Shown: one piece after another, positions 1 to 28,790 of the stretch | How the letters are laid out: each line of letters opens with the position of its first letter | How positions within the stretch are numbered: position 1 is the stretch's first letter | NCBI RefSeq assembly: GCF_000164695.2 | Contig: NC_014643.1 | Span: forward strand, 806,001-870,000 | Length of the DNA: 64,000 nt | Source of the DNA: Rothia dentocariosa ATCC 17931 | GTDB taxonomy: Bacteria; Actinomycetota; Actinomycetes; Actinomycetales; Micrococcaceae | Reading direction: 5' to 3' | Made by a program: the position numbers and the translations under genes | The notes under the pieces: model-generated | Database searches by the model: none | The model's input: the letters and a program-made list of their open reading frames with translations, nothing else | What the model was told of the DNA's origin: nothing

Positions 1-251
1 CTAGAAACAATAGCAGCATAGGCACTGATCCCGATCATATAGTAGGTCCCGGTATTCACCGACCCTTCCAAGCTGTCCCGCTGCGGATAAGCGATCATAA
101 AGAAGAACATAACAGGAAGCAAAATAGCCAGGAGAAAGATCCGCAAGTTACGGAACTTCCTGCGCAACTCCAGCAGAACAACAGTGCTATTAATCCACAC
201 AGGACGCACTTGAGGAAGACTCGCCGCCTGGGCACTAGTGTTATTTGGCAT
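1..251 (-). CDS. ABC-2 type transporter permease, N-terminal part (cut by window edge)
   Basis: About 83 residues of a membrane permease are visible, reading leftwards off the window. The start is the ATG complementary to 249-251, which overlaps the last codons of the upstream ABC ATPase by about 11 bases, so the two are translationally coupled. The N-terminus is polar; a basic stretch (LRRKFRNLR) is followed by a hydrophobic segment around residues 37-55 (IFLLAILLPVMFFFMIAY) and a second hydrophobic stretch at the cut. This is the usual layout of an ABC-2 (DrrB-like) permease. The substrate cannot be told from the sequence. The pair lies divergent from the two 42-residue peptide genes and could export them or protect against them; that link is inferred from position only. 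Confidence 0.75.
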   Translation of the reverse strand, partial: MPNNTSAQAASLPQVRPVWINSTVVLLELRRKFRNLRIFLLAILLPVMFFFMIAYPQRDSLEGSVNTGTYYMIGISAYAAIVS

Positions 252-1182
252 TCTTGTGCTCTCCTTCGGAATCGGTCTCGGTCAGTAACACAAACGCATC
301 ATCTAAGGAAGACGATGCGATCTCCAGGTTCTTAGCGAACCCATCAGCAAGCAGATGCGAAGCAACAGCGTCCGCATCAGCAGCAGAGATTTCCAAGCGA
401 ATACCGTGCAACGATACTGCACTCACACCGTCAAGAGCACGAAGCTCCGCAAGACGCTCCTCAATTTGCTCAGACGTCCACGCATCATTGACCGTCGCAC
501 GCAAAGTAGAACCCCGCGCATACGACCTGATCTCAGCAGGAGTCCCATCCGCTACCACATGCCCCTGATTAATGACCACCACACGATCAGCAAACTCATC
601 AACCTCAGCCAAATAATGAGTCGCAAACAAAACAGCACGCTGATGATCCCCCGACTGAGTCACCGACGCCCAAAAATCACGGCGACCCTGCACATCCATA
701 CCAGCCGTGGGCTCATCAAGAATCAAAAAATCCGGATCAGTCAACAACGCAATAGCAAAACGAAGACGCTGCTTCTGCCCACCAGAACATTTCTGCACAA
801 GCGTCTTAGCATTACCCTCAAGCCCGGCCTGAGCCAGAACAGCAGAAACATTCTTAAGCTTGCCGTACAAAGACGCCATATATTGCACGGTTTCTTTAAC
901 CGTCAAATCAGGAAGTAAACCACCATCCTGCTGCACGGCAGCAACATGCCCTGCTTTAACAGCATGCTGCGGAGTCGTTCCAAAAACCTCAACCGACCCA
1001 GCATACGGTTTAGTCAAACCCAAAATAATATCAACCGCAGTACTTTTCCCCGCACCATTCGGCCCTAAAAGAGCAACAATCTCACCAGGATTAACCGTCA
1101 GATCAAGACCATGCAAAACAGTAGTACTACCAAACTTCTGAACAACATCACGCATCACCACCGGAGGCGAAGAATACATCAT
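241..1182 (-). CDS. ABC transporter ATP-binding protein (DrrA-like)
   Basis: A 313-residue cytoplasmic ATPase that would power the permease encoded immediately downstream. Visible motifs are Walker A GPNGAGKST at residues 40-48, the signature CSGGQ at 132-136, Walker B FLILDEP at about 152-158 and an H-loop in FATHYLAE near 193. The C-terminal third (from about 215) has the small regulatory extension seen in DrrA/CcmA-like exporters. The start ATGATG has AAAGGA 7-9 bases upstream. The gene is divergent from the small-peptide units at 1.44-2.19 kb, with about 260 bases between its start and the first repeat. Family assignment is firm. The substrate (drug, lipid or peptide) is unknown. Confidence 0.9.
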   Translation of the reverse strand: MMYSSPPVVMRDVVQKFGSTTVLHGLDLTVNPGEIVALLGPNGAGKSTAVDIILGLTKPYAGSVEVFGTTPQHAVKAGHVAAVQQDGGLLPDLTVKETVQYMASLYGKLKNVSAVLAQAGLEGNAKTLVQKCSGGQKQRLRFAIALLTDPDFLILDEPTAGMDVQGRRDFWASVTQSGDHQRAVLFATHYLAEVDEFADRVVVINQGHVVADGTPAEIRSYARGSTLRATVNDAWTSEQIEERLAELRALDGVSAVSLHGIRLEISAADADAVASHLLADGFAKNLEIASSSLDDAFVLLTETDSEGEHKNAK

Positions 1183-1441
1183 CAGCAGTTCCTTTCAAGA
1201 GCTATAAAGGCTGAATACATCTGTGTCATCACATATGAATACACACAAAGGTAGTTACACCCATAAAAGAATAGTTTTATTACTTTTACTGCTGAAGAGG
1301 TGAATGAACAGAAATAGAAATAATGTGTAGAAGTCTCAGATGCGTACTTAAACACATATCAACAATACACCCAATATCATTCCATATGAACCCTGTTAAG
1401 TGAATGTGTAGACCGTGTTTTCGAGCTTCTGCTTATATTTG
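1183..1441. other. Divergent intergenic region between ABC exporter and peptide units
   Basis: AT-rich spacer that must hold the promoter of the ABC operon (leftward) and that of the first peptide unit (rightward). I see no convincing -35/-10 pair. TATATT at about 1433-1438, just before the conserved leader, is a possible -10 for the first peptide unit. No open frame with a ribosome site is present. Confidence 0.4.
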
Positions 1442-1548
1442 TTAGGTAAAGTTAATACTGCCCTCTTCCCGGGGTACGCACGCGCCACGCATATCAAAGT
1501 GAAATCCCTGCGCGTTGATTCTTGGGGCAGAGAGGTGGTGTGGTTAGG
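1442..1548 (+). promoter_or_regulatory. Conserved structured leader of peptide gene 1
   Basis: The first 34 bases (1442-1475) recur identically at 1839-1872, ahead of peptide gene 2. The transcript can pair CTGCCC (1458-1463) with GGGCAG (1525-1530), enclosing a second stem ACGCGC (1480-1485) with GCGCGT (1510-1515). In the other copy the second stem has a different sequence on both arms but still pairs, which supports a real RNA fold. CCTCT at 1462-1466 can instead pair with AGAGG in the ribosome site (1531-1535), so the fold could switch translation on and off. No known riboswitch class is recognised. Confidence 0.6.
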
Positions 1549-1677
1549 ATGTCTTTCTATGAATTCATAGAAACGACCCAGGCAATCCTCGTGAGCTTCA
1601 TCCTCACGGACGGATCATCCTGGGTCGTGTCAGCCATCTATGATTACGTCAAGAACCTACTGGAAATCTTGAAGTAA
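1549..1677 (+). CDS. 42-residue acidic amphipathic peptide, copy 1
   Basis: A short gene of 42 codons with GAGAGGTGG about 10 bases before the ATG and a terminator hairpin directly after the stop. The peptide has no signal sequence or cysteines. It has a hydrophobic centre (QAILVS, ILTDGS) flanked by acidic residues E5, E8, D21, D32 and E39, with lysines at 35 and 42, for a net charge of about -3. It aligns without gaps to the peptide encoded at 1944-2072, with 22 of 42 positions identical, including ET at 8-9, QAILVS at 11-16 and ILTDGS at 18-23. An in-frame GTG at 1540 could start it three codons earlier. Function is unknown. Size and amphipathicity recall leaderless bacteriocins, phenol-soluble modulins or small porin peptides, and a type I toxin is another option. 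Confidence 0.65.
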   Translation: MSFYEFIETTQAILVSFILTDGSSWVVSAIYDYVKNLLEILK

Positions 1678-1686
1678 TCCCCACCT

Positions 1687-1720
1687 GGGGCTCGGAAGTT
1701 CTCGCTTCTGAGCCCCTTCT
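1687..1720 (+). terminator. Terminator of peptide gene 1
   Basis: Inverted repeat GGGGCTC-GGAAG / CTTC-T-GAGCCCC followed by TTCTTCG, 9 bases after the stop codon of peptide gene 1. It marks the gene as its own transcription unit. Confidence 0.75.
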
Positions 1721-1838
1721 TCGTGTGCGAAAAGATGACTTTGCATATCAAAGTAATATCATCATGCTATCACACCACCATAGCTGTTTTATCAGCCTCT
1801 TACACCCACCGATTTAGGCGAAATCCACCACATACTTT

Positions 1839-1943
1839 TTAGGTAAAGTTAATACTGCCCTCTTCCCGGGGTGCGCCGCAGCACATCCATTTCAGTAAAT
1901 CCCTGCGGTCGACTCTTGGGGCAGAGGGGAGGTGAGTAGAGCC
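1839..1943 (+). promoter_or_regulatory. Conserved structured leader of peptide gene 2
   Basis: The second copy of the leader begins with the same 34 bases as 1442-1475. The outer stem is CTGCCC (1855-1860) with GGGCAG (1919-1924). The inner stem is CCGCAG (1876-1881) with CTGCGG (1903-1908), replacing ACGCGC/GCGCGT of copy 1, so pairing is kept while sequence changes. CCCTCT next to the outer stem can alternatively pair with AGAGGG at 1923-1928, beside the ribosome site GGGGAGGTG. Confidence 0.6.
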
Positions 1944-2072
1944 ATGATGTTCTTTGAACTCATGGAAACAGCCCAAGCAATCCTGGTAAGTCTCATCCTT
2001 ACCGATGGATCAGCTCAGGCTGTTTTGCATGCTCTTGATGCTCTCAAGGTTGTTATCCGCAACCTGAAGTAG
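1944..2072 (+). CDS. 42-residue amphipathic peptide, copy 2
   Basis: A second 42-codon gene starting ATGATG, with GGGGAGGTG about 11 bases upstream. It keeps E5, E8, T9, QAILVS, ILTDGS, D32, K35 and the C-terminal LK of copy 1. The C-terminal half is more alanine- and valine-rich and carries H29 and R39, so net charge is near -1. A strong terminator follows 13 bases after the stop. No function can be assigned. Equal length, gap-free alignment, conserved leader and separate terminators support two real paralogous peptide genes over chance frames. Confidence 0.65.
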   Translation: MMFFELMETAQAILVSLILTDGSAQAVLHALDALKVVIRNLK

Positions 2073-2085
2073 TATCAACTCGCAA

Positions 2086-2122
2086 GGAGAGGTTCGGTCG
2101 TTGCAAGCCGCCGAGCCTCTCC
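2086..2122 (+). terminator. Terminator of peptide gene 2
   Basis: Twelve-base inverted repeat GGAGAGGTTCGG / CCGAGCCTCTCC with one G-T pair and a 13-base loop. There is no long T run. It lies 13 bases after the stop codon of peptide gene 2. Confidence 0.7.
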
Positions 2123-2251
2123 GCTACATACATAAAGTATGTAGCTTTCCATTTCAGTAATATCTTCATGCTAGCACACCGTACTTCCGCCGTTGGCGGG
2201 GTTTCCCATGCGGTGAAGCGGCAGGCTTAGCGACTCGGCGAAGCACCCGTT

Positions 2252-2391
2252 TTACACCGCAGGAATAACCTCAGCACCGCCCATGATGGATGAGGGAACT
2301 GGGTGCGAGCGCGCGAGCACTTAAGAAGTTTCCGAATCAGGCGAGGTAACGAGCCTGGTGCCTCAGGAATACGTACCGAGCCGCCCGAATG
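2252..2391 (-). pseudogene. Degraded second copy of the serS 3' end
   Basis: On the minus strand, 2391-2359 reads [11 protein letters not shown] and 2284-2252 reads [10 protein letters not shown] followed by a stop. These match the C-terminus of the intact seryl-tRNA synthetase just upstream in transcription (GSVRIPEA...MGGAEVIP). The two blocks are in different frames and separated by about 75 unrelated bases instead of the three codons of the intact gene. At DNA level the blocks differ from the intact gene mainly at third positions, so the remnant comes from a diverged serS rather than a recent local duplication. It is not expected to be translated. Confidence 0.7.
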
Positions 2392-2488
2392 CTGAGGGGA
2401 CGGAGGGCCGCACCTTCCGAGCGCGCGAGGGAACCAAGGTGCGCCCGGAGTGGAGACCCACTCCAACACCCCTCAAACTATCTCAAAT

Positions 2489-3793
2489 CTACGACGCGAC
2501 CGGAATAACCTCAGCACCGCCCATATACGGGCGCAGTGCTTCAGGGATACGCACCGAACCGTCGGGCTGCTGGTGTGTCTCCAGAATCGCCACAACCCAA
2601 CGGGTAGTCGCCAAGGTGCCGTTGAGGGTTGCGACCGCGCGGGTGCGGCCCTTGCGTACATTGCCCACATCGTCCACGGTGTCTGCGGTGCGTTCGCGTA
2701 TGTTCAGGCGGCGTGCCTGGTAGGTGGTGCAGTTCGAGGTCGAGGTCAGCTCGCGGTAGGTGCCCTGGGTGGGAACCCATGCCTCACAGTCGAATTTGCG
2801 TGCGGCAGAGGTGCCCAGGTCCCCTGCGGCGGTATCAATCACGCGATACGCAAGGCCGCATTTTTGCAGCATTTCTTCTTCGAGGGCGCGCATCTGCTCG
2901 TGTATTTCTTCCGCCTGTTCCACCTGGCAGTAGACGAACATTTCGGCCTTGTTGAACTGGTGCACGCGAATGATACCGCGGGTGTCTTTACCTGCGGCAC
3001 CGGCTTCGCGGCGATAGCAGGATGACCATCCCAGGTATTTTTTGGGTCCGTCGCTAAGGTCGAGTATTTCGTCCATATGGTAGCCCGCAAGCGCCACCTC
3101 CGAGGTGCCGACCAGGTACAGGTCATCACGTTCGAGGCGGTATATTTCGTCGTCGTGCTTGACGTTGAACCCGGTTCCGTTCATAATTTCGGGGCGCACG
3201 AGGGTGGGGGTTGTCATCATGGTGAAGCCGTTGGCTGTTGCCAGATCGAGCGCCATCCACATGAGCGCCTGCTCCAGGCGGGCAACCTGCCCTTTGAGGA
3301 AGTAAAAGCGCGAGCCGGAGACCTTGGCGCCACGTGCCATATCGATGCCGCCGATGAGTTCGCCTATTTCCAGGTGGTCGCGCGGTTCAAAACCTTCTGC
3401 GGCGAAATCGCGGGGGGTGCCGACTTCTTTGAGCACCACAAAGTCGTCTTCGCCGCCGGTGGGTACGCCGTCGATAATCAGGTTTTCGATGGAGCTTAGC
3501 AGCTCTTCATATTCGGCGGTTTTCGCCTCAGATGCCGCTTTCGCATTTGCCACGTGGGCGGCGAGTTCTTTCGCCTGCGCTACGAGAGCGGGTTTCTCTT
3601 CCTTGGGTGCCTTCGCCACCTGTTTACCGAAGGCGTTCTGTTCGGCGCGCAGGTTCTCGTAGGTGCCGATCGAGGCGCGGCGTGCGGCATCCGCCTCAAG
3701 AATACGGTCTACGTGGGCTTCGTCTTTGCCGCGTGCTCGCTGGGAGGCGCGGAAAATCTCGGGGTTTTCGCGGAGGAGGTTAATATCAATCAC
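2489..3793 (-). CDS. serS: Seryl-tRNA synthetase
   Basis: A 434-residue class II aminoacyl-tRNA synthetase that charges tRNA-Ser in the cytoplasm. The N-terminal 110 residues form the coiled-coil arm that grips the tRNA long variable loop. The catalytic core shows motif 2 ([17 protein letters not shown]) and motif 3 near the C-terminus ([19 protein letters not shown]). Length matches the family. It starts [12 protein letters not shown], as is usual for SerRS. The gene is monocistronic, with an inverted-repeat terminator upstream (3825-3888) separating it from pheA and a degraded serS tail downstream. Confidence 0.97.
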
Positions 3794-3824
3794 ATATCAA
3801 TAGTACCCAGTCGCCCCCAGCCGT

Positions 3825-3888
3825 AAAAAGAGCCTTTATGCGAATAAAGCGGGATTCCCAACGCTTTATTCGCATAAAGGCTCTTTTT
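3825..3888. terminator. GGCTCTTTAT-family inverted repeat, site 1 (terminator)
   Basis: A near-perfect 64-base inverted repeat, AAAAAGAGCCTTTAT... to ...ATAAAGGCTCTTTTT, with an internal GCGAATAAAGCG/CGCTTTATTCGC stem. A-run and T-run ends make it look bidirectional. It lies 20 bases after the pheA stop in the direction of transcription and probably ends pheA. Related elements lie at 35670, 36687, 43142, 44052 and 52184. Confidence 0.8.
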
Positions 3889-3908
3889 ATACGGTCGCGG
3901 GGGGCGGT

Positions 3909-4874
3909 TTAGCGTTTCAGATGCGCCGGTCGCCCACCCGGGAAGAGCGATTCCACCCATGCGTGGGCAGCATCGAACGAATTCTCGGAGTGGATGCGCG
4001 GCGCAACGGTGGGCTGCCGGTCGGCACGCGGGTACGATCCCAGGTATTTAATGCCGGGTGCTATGCGGTGCAGGCCACGCAGGGCGTCGCGCATTCGAGC
4101 CTCATAAATATGCCCGTCTGCGTCCACACTGAACATATAGGATCCCATTTGCCTGCCGGTGGGGCGCGATTCGATGCGTGAGAGGTTAACGCCGCGCGAA
4201 GCAAACTGTTCGAGCAGTTCCAGGAGCGCACCCGAACGGTTTTCGGGAGTGCCCTCTCGATTTTCGGGCAGAGGGATCGTGAGCGTCGTCTTATCGGCGC
4301 CGGTAGGCTCTGGAATATCCGCGGTACTGCTGATAAGCACAAACCGGGTGACGGCGTTTTTGTTATCGCCGATGTCCTCGGCAAGCACATGCAGGTCGGG
4401 GTGAGTTGCCAAAAGCGCGGGCGAACAAATCGCGGCATCATAAGCACAGGAAGGATCAAGCAAACCCACGGCTGCTGCCGCGGTGGAGGAACCGGGCAGG
4501 TACTCGGCGGTGGGGATAGTCTCATCTACCCATTGCCGCACCTGGGCCCAGGCATGCGAGTGGGTTGAAACGGTTTTAATATCTTCCAAAGCGAGCGGAC
4601 GCGCCGCGACCAGCACGAACCTGATAGGTACCAAAACTTCGCGGATAATGCGCATTCCCTCGGAAGCCGCGATCGCATCAAGAGTGGCGCTCACCCCGCC
4701 TTCGACCGAGTTCTCAATGGGCACCATAGCTGCATCCACATCGCCACTGCGAAGACGTTCGAGCGCGTTAGGCACGCTGGTGGCGGGAATGCGTTCGGCA
4801 CCGACCACGCCGGGCACGGAAAGCAGGGCGGATTCGGTGAAAGTGCCTGAGGGTCCAAGGTAGGTGTATCGCAT
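3909..4874 (-). CDS. pheA: Prephenate dehydratase
   Basis: A monofunctional enzyme (321 residues from this start) converting prephenate to phenylpyruvate in phenylalanine synthesis. Visible are the PDT domain beginning MRYTYLGPSGTFTESAL, the region around NAVTRFVLIS with the conserved TRF motif, and a C-terminal ACT domain with the ESRPTGR motif that binds phenylalanine for feedback control. The frame stays open 49 codons further upstream, but that extension is unlike the family and would run into the divergent gene starting at 5015, so the ATG at 4874 is preferred. Monocistronic, with an inverted-repeat terminator downstream. Confidence 0.95.
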   Translation of the reverse strand: MRYTYLGPSGTFTESALLSVPGVVGAERIPATSVPNALERLRSGDVDAAMVPIENSVEGGVSATLDAIAASEGMRIIREVLVPIRFVLVAARPLALEDIKTVSTHSHAWAQVRQWVDETIPTAEYLPGSSTAAAAVGLLDPSCAYDAAICSPALLATHPDLHVLAEDIGDNKNAVTRFVLISSTADIPEPTGADKTTLTIPLPENREGTPENRSGALLELLEQFASRGVNLSRIESRPTGRQMGSYMFSVDADGHIYEARMRDALRGLHRIAPGIKYLGSYPRADRQPTVAPRIHSENSFDAAHAWVESLFPGGRPAHLKR

Positions 4875-5014
4875 GGGTTCAATCTTAGCGCGAGGTGGGT
4901 TCGGCACCGCCACAAGCTCGCAGGATGAGACGTTATTTAACACAAGGTTGAGCTCTATGACGCATATCGTCTTCGTGCGCTGAGTGGTGTTCATGTCGTG
5001 CCATACTTGAGGAT

Positions 5015-5944
5015 ATGTCACCCAACTTCACGCTTCTTGATCAGCTTTATACCCAGGAAAGGCTGCTTAATTCCGGGTATACCCGCACCACGATGCGGCG
5101 TAAACTACGCACAAAAGAGCTGATCAGCGTGCTTCAAGGGGTGTATATTGCCGCATCGGTCTGGGATTCTTTTACGCCTTCTCTTCAGGTTTTGGCGCGC
5201 CACACCGCGCTGGCGCTGCGTGACTCTACCTGCGTGTTTTGCCTATCTTCGGCGGCGTTTTTGTACGGTCTGCCTCTTCTGCATGTGCCGCAGAATTTGC
5301 ATGTGCTCGCCGGATATTCGGTGCGAGGGGCGGCATCGGACGGCGTTCTGGAGCATACAAGCAATGAAGCCTCAGTACAGGTGACGGTCTTACGCCCGAA
5401 TTTTCGGGTTACTGAGCTCTCGCAGACCCTCCTGGATTGTGCCCGCACACTTCCCGTTCTTGAAGGATGCGCTCTCGTTGATGCCGCGCTGCACCGCCGA
5501 ATGCTTGCACCCGAAGAGATTTTGCCGCGTTTGCAGGCGAGCCAAAATTCGGCGGCCACCCATATTGCCACGCATGCGGATGCGCGCAGCAGCTCACTTC
5601 TGGAAAGCGTTGCGCGTCTGCAGCTGGTTGAGATGGGTCTTCCCGCGCCCGTGCATCGGCTGGATTTTGAGGCATATCTGTTGAGAGCTTCGGATGCACA
5701 TGCCCCGAACCGAGCCTCGGACTATGTGGGTGTGTACCGCATGTTACGCACCCGGCAGGCGAGTTTCGTGTGGCTCGAACAGCGGGTGGGTCTTGCAATG
5801 GTGGCTTCCGACGCCGTGCTTCCTCACGCGGATGCACCCACCCCCGAAGGTTGGCATATGGTTCAGGTTCGGTGGGAAGATTTTTATCCTTCGTCGCGAG
5901 TGCTTCGTGAGAAACTGCACCCCTATTTTCCACAACTTAGGTAA
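5015..5944 (+). CDS. AbiEi-type antitoxin-like / DUF559-like protein, orphan
   Basis: A 309-residue cytoplasmic protein. The N-terminal 60 residues (LYTQERLLNSGYTR...ISVLQGVYI) have the winged-helix pattern of AbiEi-type antitoxins, and the middle (residues 65-150) resembles the second AbiEi domain. The last third looks like a worn DUF559/Vsr-like endonuclease fold (LQLVEMGLPAPVHRLDF...), without the usual catalytic D...ExK being clear. No AbiEii nucleotidyltransferase toxin is adjacent. Such stand-alone proteins are common in Micrococcales and their job is not established. A GAGG sits only two bases before the ATG, so the transcript may be leaderless. It is divergent from pheA. Confidence 0.6.
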   Translation: MSPNFTLLDQLYTQERLLNSGYTRTTMRRKLRTKELISVLQGVYIAASVWDSFTPSLQVLARHTALALRDSTCVFCLSSAAFLYGLPLLHVPQNLHVLAGYSVRGAASDGVLEHTSNEASVQVTVLRPNFRVTELSQTLLDCARTLPVLEGCALVDAALHRRMLAPEEILPRLQASQNSAATHIATHADARSSSLLESVARLQLVEMGLPAPVHRLDFEAYLLRASDAHAPNRASDYVGVYRMLRTRQASFVWLEQRVGLAMVASDAVLPHADAPTPEGWHMVQVRWEDFYPSSRVLREKLHPYFPQLR

Positions 5945-5965
5945 GTGCTTTTTGGGCACATAAAA

Positions 5966-5987
5966 TATATTCCGATATAGGAATATA
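5966..5987. repeat. Perfect inverted repeat TATATTCC-N6-GGAATATA
   Basis: Eight-base perfect arms around GATATA in an AT-rich gap between convergent genes. It looks like a protein-binding site or weak terminator. No T run follows. Its role is unknown. Confidence 0.45.
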
Positions 5988-6081
5988 AGGTATTTGACTA
6001 GTATAAATAAAAATTTATGCCGATATATGCCATATTCCCGATCAGGCATATAGCAGGTGCTAGGGGCTAAGTAAACACGGT

Positions 6082-27416: not shown

Positions 27417-28622
27417 CTATGTGTTTGCCGTTTTCCAGGGAATCTCAACGTTGTCCGGCACATCTGCGTTCGCCTCGGTTTTCGCGCCAACGCTCGCGGT
27501 ATCATCCTCTGCGCTCATGTGAGTTGCTCGGCGTTCTTTCCACGCCCAGCCGATCGCCCCGGCGAGAAGGCCAAACCCTGCCCAGCCCAACAGCACAGCC
27601 CATTGCAGGGAGTTTGAAGCATTCGGAAAATAGGCGATATTCCGCAGCAACGTGTTGGATGCACCCGGCACCATCAGCTGCCCGAAGGCACCCCAGGGTG
27701 CGGGGATGAACTGCCACGGCATGTTTGCCCCGGAGAGCGGGTTGCCGATGAACATGGAGATCACGGCGCCAAGACCGATACCGACGGCGTCTGCAAACAG
27801 CGCGGACATTCCGATCATGAAGGAGGCCGTCGCGAAAACGGTCATGCCGAAGGTCGCCCAAAGTGCCCCGAAATCGCCGGGAACAAACCCGAACCAGGTT
27901 CCTAGAATAAGGGTCATGAAGAGTCCGCCAAGAATCCCGTAGAGTCCTGCAGTCGCGAAGCGTCGCACGGTTCCTTTGACAAGAGAGATACTGAGAACCC
28001 CGCCGATTATGCCGCCCATAACAAGCGGGAATGCGGCAACCGCCAGACCCATACCGTTGGGGTCACCGTCGCCGAGTGGTACGACTGCGGTGGTTTTGAC
28101 CTGCGCCTGCTGCAGTTTTTCCTGCTCGGTTTTCAGCTGTTCGAGCTGCTGGGTGGCGATAGCGCCCTGCTGCCCGCCCGCCTGGGCGGCCTGCTGCAGT
28201 GCCTGAGTTTTAGCTGCGGTAGCTTGCTGCTGTACCTGAGCGTTCATCTGCTGGGCTACGCCAGTGAGCATCTGGTTTGCGGATGCGTTTGCGGCGGGCG
28301 CGGTCATGACCTCGGGCGCCGCACCTTCGGTGAAGACGATCGCGCCGTAGGTTTCACGTTCTTTGATCTGCCGTTCGGCGTCTTCGCGCGAGGATGCCTG
28401 TTTGAACTCGAAGGTTTCGATTCCTCGCTCTTTGAGTCCTTGCTCGAATTGGCTGACGGCTGCTTCCGGTCCCGCGATGGAGACGGGTAGGTTCGTCTCC
28501 ATGGCTTTAGTGGGCCACGTGAAGGCGAGAATCACGATGCTGACGATGACGGATGCCAGCGTGGCGATGGCGATAACTTTACGCCAGGATGAGGGCGTAA
28601 TCGCCTCCGGTGTGCGTGCCAT
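27417..28622 (-). CDS. ABC-2/YhgE-like membrane protein under TetR control
   Basis: A 401-residue membrane protein. One N-terminal helix (residues 15-35) precedes an extracytoplasmic region of about 150 residues, with a Q/A-rich coiled-coil stretch (QMNAQVQQQATAAKTQALQQAAQAGGQQ); five or so helices follow from about residue 190. This matches DUF3533/YhgE-like ABC-2-type proteins. ATG at 28622 follows GGAGAG by four bases. It is divergent from a TetR gene, with an operator-like palindrome at its start, so it is probably a TetR-controlled efflux or secretion factor. Confidence 0.7.
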   Translation of the reverse strand: MARTPEAITPSSWRKVIAIATLASVIVSIVILAFTWPTKAMETNLPVSIAGPEAAVSQFEQGLKERGIETFEFKQASSREDAERQIKERETYGAIVFTEGAAPEVMTAPAANASANQMLTGVAQQMNAQVQQQATAAKTQALQQAAQAGGQQGAIATQQLEQLKTEQEKLQQAQVKTTAVVPLGDGDPNGMGLAVAAFPLVMGGIIGGVLSISLVKGTVRRFATAGLYGILGGLFMTLILGTWFGFVPGDFGALWATFGMTVFATASFMIGMSALFADAVGIGLGAVISMFIGNPLSGANMPWQFIPAPWGAFGQLMVPGASNTLLRNIAYFPNASNSLQWAVLLGWAGFGLLAGAIGWAWKERRATHMSAEDDTASVGAKTEANADVPDNVEIPWKTANT

Positions 28623-28632
28623 GAAACTCTCC

Positions 28633-28654
28633 AAACAAAATAGATGTTTTGTTT
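28633..28654. promoter_or_regulatory. TetR operator candidate
   Basis: AAACAAAA-TAGATG-TTTTGTTT, a perfect 8-base inverted repeat 11 bases before the membrane-protein ATG. Half-sites recur nearby as TGTTTAT (28712) and ATAAACA (28735) close to the TetR start. Expected target of the divergent TetR protein. Confidence 0.65.
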
Positions 28655-28790
28655 ATTAACACCTAAGACTCTACTCTGCATAAAGACCAGACGCAAACAC
28701 AATAATCATTTTGTTTATAATTTCACAACAGAGAATAAACATTCTATTTTTATCTAGCGCAAACTCCTCGGAAAGGTATAGTCTTAAGGC

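Follow-up and report, generated by a model that had tools for sequence, protein, structure and literature searches.

A Pair of 42-Residue Peptide Genes

The stretch of DNA analysed here (the window) comprised 64,000 nucleotides, positions 806001-870000 of the 2,506,025-base single-contig genome of Rothia dentocariosa (G000). Near its left end, two small open reading frames were found, each followed by a hairpin region:

1549..1677, plus strand: copy 1, predicted toxin peptide of 42 aa (ORF, family alignment, coding constraint, AlphaFold model)
1944..2072, plus strand: copy 2, predicted toxin peptide of 42 aa (ORF, family alignment, coding constraint)
1687..1716, unstranded: copy 1, hairpin with T-rich tail, probably common to mRNA and antisense RNA (z of -5.8 for 1684-1718)
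2086..2145, unstranded: copy 2, two hairpins (2086-2122 and 2123-2145), a region probably common to mRNA and antisense RNA (terminator scan, folding)

The preliminary description of this DNA had reported an ungapped pair of related peptides with identical leader starts and good ribosome sites, and this was borne out. The two peptides share 22 of 42 residues (52%) without gaps, the leaders begin with an identical 34-base stretch (1442-1475 and 1839-1872, spacing of 397), and purine-rich ribosome sites lie upstream of both ORFs. Among the 11 copies of the family described below, pN was lower than pS in 55/55 ORF pairs, which are non-independent, and one close pair had a pN/pS ratio of 0.91, resting on four changes. 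The peptide frames look coding, and the ORF appears to be under purifying constraint.

All 11 peptides are 42 aa long with GRAVY values of 0.68-0.94, and all have the size and hydropathy expected of type I toxins (small, mostly hydrophobic, below ~60 aa). Their 17-residue hydropathy peaks are modest (1.3-1.7), which by rule of thumb falls under a typical transmembrane segment. The net charge is -1 in ten peptides and -3 in the other, the second half is amphipathic (helical moment of 0.34-0.48), and proline is absent from all 11. The AlphaFold model of the copy 1 peptide has helices at residues 3-21 and 24-41, predicted to break at a conserved D-G. Because the mean pLDDT was 73, the pTM 0.35 and the alignment contained just 11 sequences, this model was used for secondary structure only.

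Searches of Pfam, NCBIfam, PHROG, PADLOC and PDB sequences found no relative of the peptides above chance; the best family-library and PDB-sequence matches were at chance level (E of 0.046 and 0.067). The earlier statement that no known family was recognised held in these collections. On the same grounds, secreted bacteriocin, modulin and porin identities gained no support. Leaderless bacteriocin-like or modulin-like family membership was set aside because there was no sequence relationship to a known family, and the PorA/PorH-type small porins of mycolate bacteria because there was no Pfam or NCBIfam match.

Eleven Copies in Two Rothia Species

The family was found to comprise 11 copies, seven in the R. 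dentocariosa genome (805183, 807549 (copy 1), 807944 (copy 2), 1128249, 1183735, 1193503 and 1194808) and four in Rothia aeria (G001; 599821, 287943, 250537 and 253546), each species being represented by one genome. Nine of them lie outside the window, five in R. dentocariosa and four in R. aeria. One copy, G000:805183-805311, sits just ahead of the window start. By their neighbours, 807944 is orthologous to R. aeria 599821 (beside serS), 1128249 to 287943, and 1193503 to 250537.

The search of relatives proposed in the preliminary description yielded further copies, limited to R. dentocariosa and R. aeria. Of 35 genus genomes, two gave matches to a family consensus made by eye (E <= 0.01), amounting to these 11 copies, and the other 33 gave none at this threshold. 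A single-sequence search of 57 other relatives gave no match at E <= 0.1. By profile search of an order-wide draw, the family was present in one of 396 genomes, R. dentocariosa's own, R. aeria being evidently outside the draw; among one-genome-per-species contigs, from which records near the own genome were possibly omitted, the only match was in R. aeria. The R. aeria record AP017895.1 carries three of the four G001 copies in the same places. Profile matches at E of 0.07-0.93 (15 other genus genomes and two extra in the own genome) were treated as chance, and four of these loci were read. No family match was found in plasmid, phage and viral-contig collections. The first 700 bases after serS contained no family copy in four more distant genus members (L089, L090, L091 and L093).

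The RNA level gave a similar picture. A leader model (R1) and an antitoxin model (R2) had low-E matches in the two carrier species only, among 35 genomes, when 120 first-look candidates per genome were scored out of 1,004-2,091 and 298-859, respectively; R2 rows at E of 0.06-0.99 (7/19) were put down to chance or to hairpins already known, read on the other strand. A scan for the word plus promoter described below, at 30 serS loci (of 35 genomes), also matched in the two carrier species only. An Rfam search of window positions 1-6000 gave two matches, both at chance level.

A Private Word on Both Sides of Each Gene

A direct repeat, absent from the preliminary description, was found around each gene. 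The leader of each copy contains a private 12-14-base word, which recurs past the hairpin in the same orientation:

1489..1500, plus strand: copy 1, private leader word, predicted antitoxin target (direct-repeat match, duplex prediction)
1743..1754, unstranded: copy 1, second private word in the same orientation, whose complement opens the predicted antisense RNA (direct-repeat match)
1886..1898, plus strand: copy 2, private leader word (direct-repeat match, duplex prediction)
2148..2160, unstranded: copy 2, second private word (direct-repeat match)

In the tested range, an exact 12-14-nt word was present in 9/11 loci, starting 55-60 bases ahead of the ATG and 63-77 bases past the stop codon. 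The word of the copy at 1183735 is inexact, with a single mismatch that could pair as G-U. In the copy at 1193503 (G0_1193503m) the word is present, and an inserted stretch nearer the gene displaces it beyond the tested range.

The longest exact leader/downstream matches of the 11 loci summed to 127, which was reached in 0 of 100,000 permutations (largest value of 118), and the mean match between loci was 6.7. As read from these sequences, the words appear to match inside loci and not across loci. Predicted duplexes led to the same view: cognate pairs had a mean of -20.6 kcal/mol versus -11.7 kcal/mol for the others, among which orthologues sharing one word were counted (0/100,000 permutations). 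For the seven copies of R. dentocariosa, the cognate duplex was the strongest in 7/7 rows and columns (1/5,040 exact permutations), with narrow insulation in places, the strongest non-cognate duplex being -16.7 kcal/mol versus -17.0 kcal/mol for the weakest cognate one. Cross-talk would be likeliest between the 1128249 leader and the 1193503 RNA.

To compare segments, four paralogue pairs and two orthologue pairs were chosen. The ORFs of the paralogues were 86-97% identical, as against 57-71% for the leader words and 56-70% for the hairpins; random 12-mers gave 42% by the same alignment procedure. In the two orthologue pairs the words were identical. From this six-pair comparison, the recognition parts diverge among the copies of one lineage yet stay matched at each locus.

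A Predicted Convergent Antisense Promoter

On the minus strand, just past the second word, an extended -10 box of the pattern [GA]TGnTAnnnT was found in 11/11 copies. If transcription starts 7 nt past the -10 hexamer, the predicted RNA would begin 0-2 nt ahead of the complement of the word, and therefore a convergent small RNA would open with the complement of the leader word:

1764..1773, minus strand: copy 1, extended -10 box of the predicted antitoxin, GTGATAGCAT (pattern in 11/11 copies; no call by the sigma-70 scan)
2168..2177, minus strand: copy 2, extended -10 box of the predicted antitoxin, GTGCTAGCAT (pattern in 11/11 copies)
1680..1757, minus strand: copy 1, predicted antitoxin RNA, start ~1757 (7 nt after the hexamer), end past the hairpin (-10 box, model R2, fold)
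2075..2161, minus strand: copy 2, predicted antitoxin RNA, start ~2161, with an unpaired 15-nt 5' seed and two hairpins (-10 box, model R2, fold)

Model R2 matched the copy 1 antitoxin, copy 1 itself being part of the model, and 1676-1756 folds with a z of -3.5. The antisense fold of copy 2 (2071-2160) has a z of -5.5, and 0/200 shuffles were as stable. The complementarity and the -10 box are clear, and on these a predicted antisense RNA complementary to the toxin mRNA would be encoded at the locus. A consensus sigma-70 scan called neither this promoter nor that of the toxin mRNA, and a conserved -35 box is evident at neither, so that both promoters rest on conservation among the copies.

The hairpins lie between the two convergent genes in the copies that were read. 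It had been proposed that each peptide gene has a private hairpin terminator. Hairpins do follow both ORFs, but this wording understates their nature, as they diverge among the copies and are probably common to both RNAs. The first hairpin of copy 2 has a folding z of -3.3 (2088-2124) and no T-run of its own, and the second (2123-2145) is followed by TTTCC. Most hairpins of the copies read by eye have no T-run on either strand, and termination in both directions is therefore an assumption; the terminator scan is weak evidence alone, with 2 found versus 1.3 expected in shuffles.

A scan for the whole geometry, run on both strands of the window and eight further stretches (356,016 strand-bases from 178 kb, with ~10 kb of overlap counted twice), found 10/11 copies and nothing else, by a rule written after the loci were seen; the missed copy was the one with the mismatched word. 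No match was obtained in 2.56 million bases of Markov sequence. Of the four identities that had been offered, the private direct repeat and the predicted convergent antisense promoter favour the type I toxin. Each unit is probably a type I toxin-antitoxin locus of a new family, laid out like par(pAD1) and carrying a private RNA antitoxin.

A second small gene was observed in both species (G000:C1:1361471-1361670, plus strand; R. aeria 28596-28700, minus strand). It encodes a cationic amphipathic peptide of 35 aa, identical in the two and unrelated to the 42-aa family, and a weaker relative (55%) lies at G000:1049416. Its leader weakly matches the leader model (E of 0.014). Inspection by eye showed an 11-base word of the leader repeated within the ORF, and a TATAAT box downstream on the opposite strand. 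It is possibly another antisense-controlled peptide.

Predicted Promoter and Structured Leader of the Toxin mRNA

The following parts of the predicted toxin mRNAs were assigned:

1447..1452, plus strand: copy 1, predicted toxin-mRNA -10 box (TAAAGT), predicted start ~1458 (conservation across copies)
1844..1849, plus strand: copy 2, predicted toxin-mRNA -10 box, predicted start ~1855 (conservation across copies)
1458..1541, plus strand: copy 1, structured leader, whose 5' end pairs with the Shine-Dalgarno region and whose helix b presents the word (z of -2.5 for 1455-1541)
1855..1935, plus strand: copy 2, structured leader, its apical loop holding the word and its base the Shine-Dalgarno region (z of -2.6 for 1852-1935)

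TAAAGT/G occurs at -96 to -102 from the ATG in 9/11 copies and at -157 in the disrupted copy 1193503m; R. aeria 599821m has a TAGTTA-like box in its place. In the RNAalifold structure of the 10 intact leaders, the 5' end of the mRNA is paired with the Shine-Dalgarno region. Single folds gave an unpaired probability of 0.58-0.93 for the word in 9/10 leaders (0.34 in the tenth) and of 0.04-0.41 for the Shine-Dalgarno sequence, which is thus mostly paired.

Two helices were picked by eye before counting, and their statistics are therefore post hoc. Helix a (GGGGU/AUCCC and variants) is paired in 50/50 cells of the 10 intact leaders, and three of its five columns show both G-C and A-U (74/100,000 permutations, or 640 with the 8 non-redundant leaders); in the disrupted eleventh leader, 1193503m, one of the five pairs is broken. 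Helix b, which closes the word loop, varies among the copies yet pairs (22/100,000 permutations, or 295 with the 8 non-redundant leaders).

Helix a competes with the long leader hairpin. A pseudoknot switch in which helix a frees the ribosome site was considered and rejected, as reserving helix a shifted the Shine-Dalgarno accessibility by only 0 to 0.09. The reservation cost 3.4-10.9 kcal/mol before the gain of the helix itself. Given these values, no switch is put forward to account for the covariation of helix a. When the word was blocked in the nested fold, the Shine-Dalgarno pairing stayed within 0.01 in 8/10 leaders and became slightly more open in two; since blocking the word barely alters this pairing, pairing alone fails to explain repression. 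A Hok-like fold-back of the 3' end onto the Shine-Dalgarno sequence is possible at each of the 10 loci, and this 3' pairing is not locus-specific (5,288/100,000 permutations).

Decayed Loci

Three decayed loci were found. At G000:1190574-1190659 the leader and the ORF are gone and the hairpin, the word and the antisense promoter remain, with 31 consecutive identical bases over the word-promoter stretch, giving a predicted orphan antitoxin. In copy 1193503m the ribosome site is replaced by the inserted stretch and the antitoxin is kept. A leader without its ribosome-site end survives in R. aeria near 260216-260313, where the ORF and the antitoxin are gone. All 10 copies that have an intact leader also have the second word. 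Decay thus appears asymmetric, one of the three sites retaining the antitoxin alone.

The orphan bears on the possibility that the words are leftovers of duplication, or a target-site-like sequence of a protein or mobile element, and no RNA-RNA target. Repeats in the same orientation around a gene could mark an insertion, and relatives have sites without units. However, the orphan site keeps the downstream word and the promoter after loss of the leader and the ORF, so that the word does not bound the lost segment. Both words also stand at fixed positions in the locus and differ among the copies while the flanking -10 box and the helices are kept. The probability of this explanation is almost negligible, and the words are better read as the matched halves of an RNA-RNA pairing in a type I locus.

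Several similar stretches were observed by eye near serS and at one copy. After serS, at window positions 2220-2470, lies a stretch with GAGCGCGCGAG and, by eye, an apparently duplicated 3'-end sequence of serS. The stretch that replaced the ribosome site in 1193503m (G000 ~1193504-1193564) resembles it, and similar stretches follow serS in two other Rothia genomes (L089 and L091). The GAGCGCGCGAG 12-mer alone was unenriched in the window, with 3 matches at <=1 mismatch versus 1.2 expected.

Transporter Genes next to the Copies

To the left of copy 1, two genes of an ABC exporter run away from the peptide genes:

241-1182, minus strand: ABC exporter ATPase, left of copy 1
G000:805469-806251, minus strand: ABC-2 permease, left of the ATPase and extending past the left edge of the window

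The divergent arrangement given in the preliminary description was therefore correct. The suggested link between the peptides and the exporter was not conserved: in R. aeria, the orthologue stands alone, flanked immediately by serS and a diacylglycerol-kinase-like gene, and the exporter is absent. Because of this absence, the ABC exporter is not a conserved partner and a partnership with it was rejected; at the other sites, the adjoining transporters belong to other families. In R. dentocariosa the exporter is located between copies 805183 and 807549. Since the copies bracket it (G000:C1:805183-808180) and it is absent from the corresponding place in R. aeria, the exporter cassette could be acquired or deleted through recombination between them.

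The same evidence weighs on the view that these are secreted peptides, such as a leaderless bacteriocin, a modulin-like peptide or a signal, carried out by the ABC exporter and timed by the antisense RNA. The peptide size, the helical-hairpin model, the amphipathic second half (0.34-0.48) and the adjoining exporter would all be compatible with it. The net charge (-1 in 10/11, -3 in one) speaks against it, being unusual among bacteriocins, as does the lack of the exporter beside the R. aeria orthologue; moreover, secretion accounts for neither the private words nor an antitoxin without a peptide gene. Secretion is thus very unlikely as the main role, and a type I function is preferred.

By Pfam, an MFS gene adjoins 1128249, an ABC_tran protein gene 1183735 and a MATE gene 1194808, and EamA is next to the orphan site at 1190574 and to the R. 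aeria counterpart 253546. In all, a transporter gene adjoins a copy or the orphan at 5/5 R. dentocariosa sites (805183-808180, 1128249, 1183735, 1193503-1194808 and 1190574) and at 3/5 R. aeria sites, the exceptions being 599821 (serS and DAGK-like gene) and 250537 (flavodoxin-like gene and MarR). Among 20 control genes of the window, 3 are transporters (P-type ATPase, MATE and amino-acid permease), or 4 counting PTS EIIA. The excess of transporters near the copies is suggestive; it comes from few sites, was noticed after the fact and is unexplained.

All five R. dentocariosa sites have transporter neighbours, which would not be expected from a plain addiction module. It might be supposed that the peptides are regulators or helpers of the adjoining transporters, or useful small membrane proteins, held low by the antisense RNA and non-toxic at natural levels. 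The ABC-2, MFS, ABC_tran, MATE and (orphan) EamA neighbours, compared with 3-4 of 20 controls, speak for such a role, as does the chromosomal position of the copies, which have no relatives in the plasmid, phage and viral-contig collections and of which three are orthologous across the two species. But two of the five R. aeria sites (599821 and 250537) have no immediate transporter neighbour, the transporter families vary while the peptides stay similar, and the neighbour count was made post hoc on few sites. Addiction fits better with six intact-leader copies in one genome, the absence from 33 genus genomes, the private words and the toxin-first decay. A helper role is therefore unlikely. The type I reading in turn draws on a family carried by two species, with decay seen at three loci.

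A long inverted repeat was also observed between serS and a pheA-like gene (window 3822-3892); its best Rfam match was a chance microRNA (E of 0.15).

Proposed Mode of Action

The repeats, the word specificity, the conserved antisense -10 box, the helices, the coding constraint and the asymmetric decay were obtained from sequence; from them we infer both transcripts, the toxicity, the repression mechanism and the biological role. In the proposed toxin-antitoxin locus, the plus-strand mRNA would encode a 42-residue hydrophobic helical-hairpin peptide, which may harm the membrane of its own cell if made. A convergent minus-strand small RNA of ~75-90 nt would enter the same hairpin from the opposite side, and pairing at the word and between the two complementary hairpins would silence the mRNA. 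The target precedes the Shine-Dalgarno sequence by ~30 nt, and that sequence is itself paired into a helix with the 5' end of the mRNA; a block of a ribosome standby site or RNase III cleavage of the duplex is therefore likelier than a cover of the start site. Loss or silencing of the locus would allow the peptide to be made, as the short RNA would be the first to disappear. The private words would restrict cross-silencing among the loci of one genome.

A broader proposal is more tentative, and we give it slightly less than an even chance: that this is an undescribed type I family and the first in Actinomycetota; that one chromosome encodes eight RNA antitoxins of differing specificity, seven with toxin genes and one orphan; that new specificities arise when the 12-14-base word changes in step at the antitoxin 5' end and in the leader loop, with the toxin under purifying selection; and that the orphan protects against the loci of relatives as an anti-addiction RNA. 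If true, the recurring transporter neighbours would mean that the loci anchor exchangeable efflux genes, or that the peptides act on them. The paralogues also form a ready-made series for experiments on the diversification of RNA-RNA specificity.

Comparison with Known Type I Systems

A parallel exists with the standby-site model of tisB/istR-1 of E. coli, in that the predicted antisense RNA would bind the leader at an accessible site preceding a sequestered ribosome site. IstR-1 is encoded by a separate gene adjoining tisB, and that system is not known to have a direct-repeat layout or a shared terminator. As in Ldr/Rdl and Ibs/Sib of E. coli, one chromosome has several paralogous peptide genes, each with a predicted antisense RNA of its own. 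Those systems comprise other peptide families, and their antisense RNAs overlap the target gene directly, without a direct repeat.

According to a 2025 article, the known range of type I systems was confined to Proteobacteria, Firmicutes and Tenericutes before its own cyanobacterial proposal, msoT1/msoA1 of Microcystis, a proposed type I locus outside those phyla, and this narrow range was blamed on searches starting from known loci (PMC12390103). No type I report from Actinobacteria or Rothia was found in the open-licence PMC literature. The present loci are possibly the first noted in Actinomycetota, a tentative statement because the search covered that literature only. The loci were recognised by regulatory geometry alone, without toxin homology, and a search rule for other phyla could be built on it: a small ORF bracketed by a word repeated in one orientation, followed directly by an extended -10 box on the antisense strand. 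In the same article, the msoT1 toxin is given two predicted helices, the second lying in the membrane, and the msoA1 antitoxin is predicted to pair with the 3' part of the coding sequence and with the 3' UTR (PMC12390103). The two-helix model of the Rothia peptide might match the former; unlike msoA1, which is from another phylum, the Rothia antitoxin is predicted to target the leader word.

The closest layout is that of par(pAD1). As a published account describes it, its promoters converge, the two transcripts cross direct repeats in opposite directions, one terminator serves both, and leader helices hold the 5' end and the Shine-Dalgarno sequence (PMC7472228). Like this RNA I-RNA II system of Firmicutes, the Rothia loci have predicted convergent genes crossing a direct repeat, a hairpin between the genes, and leader helices that sequester the 5' end and the Shine-Dalgarno sequence in RNAalifold and single folds. 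Unlike par(pAD1), which has DRa and DRb, they have a single direct repeat, located ~30 nt upstream of the ribosome site; the hairpin tails are mostly without T-runs, the host is actinobacterial, and there are many paralogues with different words. The peptides differ as well. The same account names a PXXXG motif for the Fst/par peptides (PMC7472228), and this is absent from the Rothia peptides because they contain no proline; the Fst/Ldr motif as a whole (PXXXG(C), charged tail) was not found, and the unrelated 42-aa peptide had no Pfam, NCBIfam or PDB match. Judged by layout and peptide together, the Rothia loci would work like par, yet they are not members of the Fst family.
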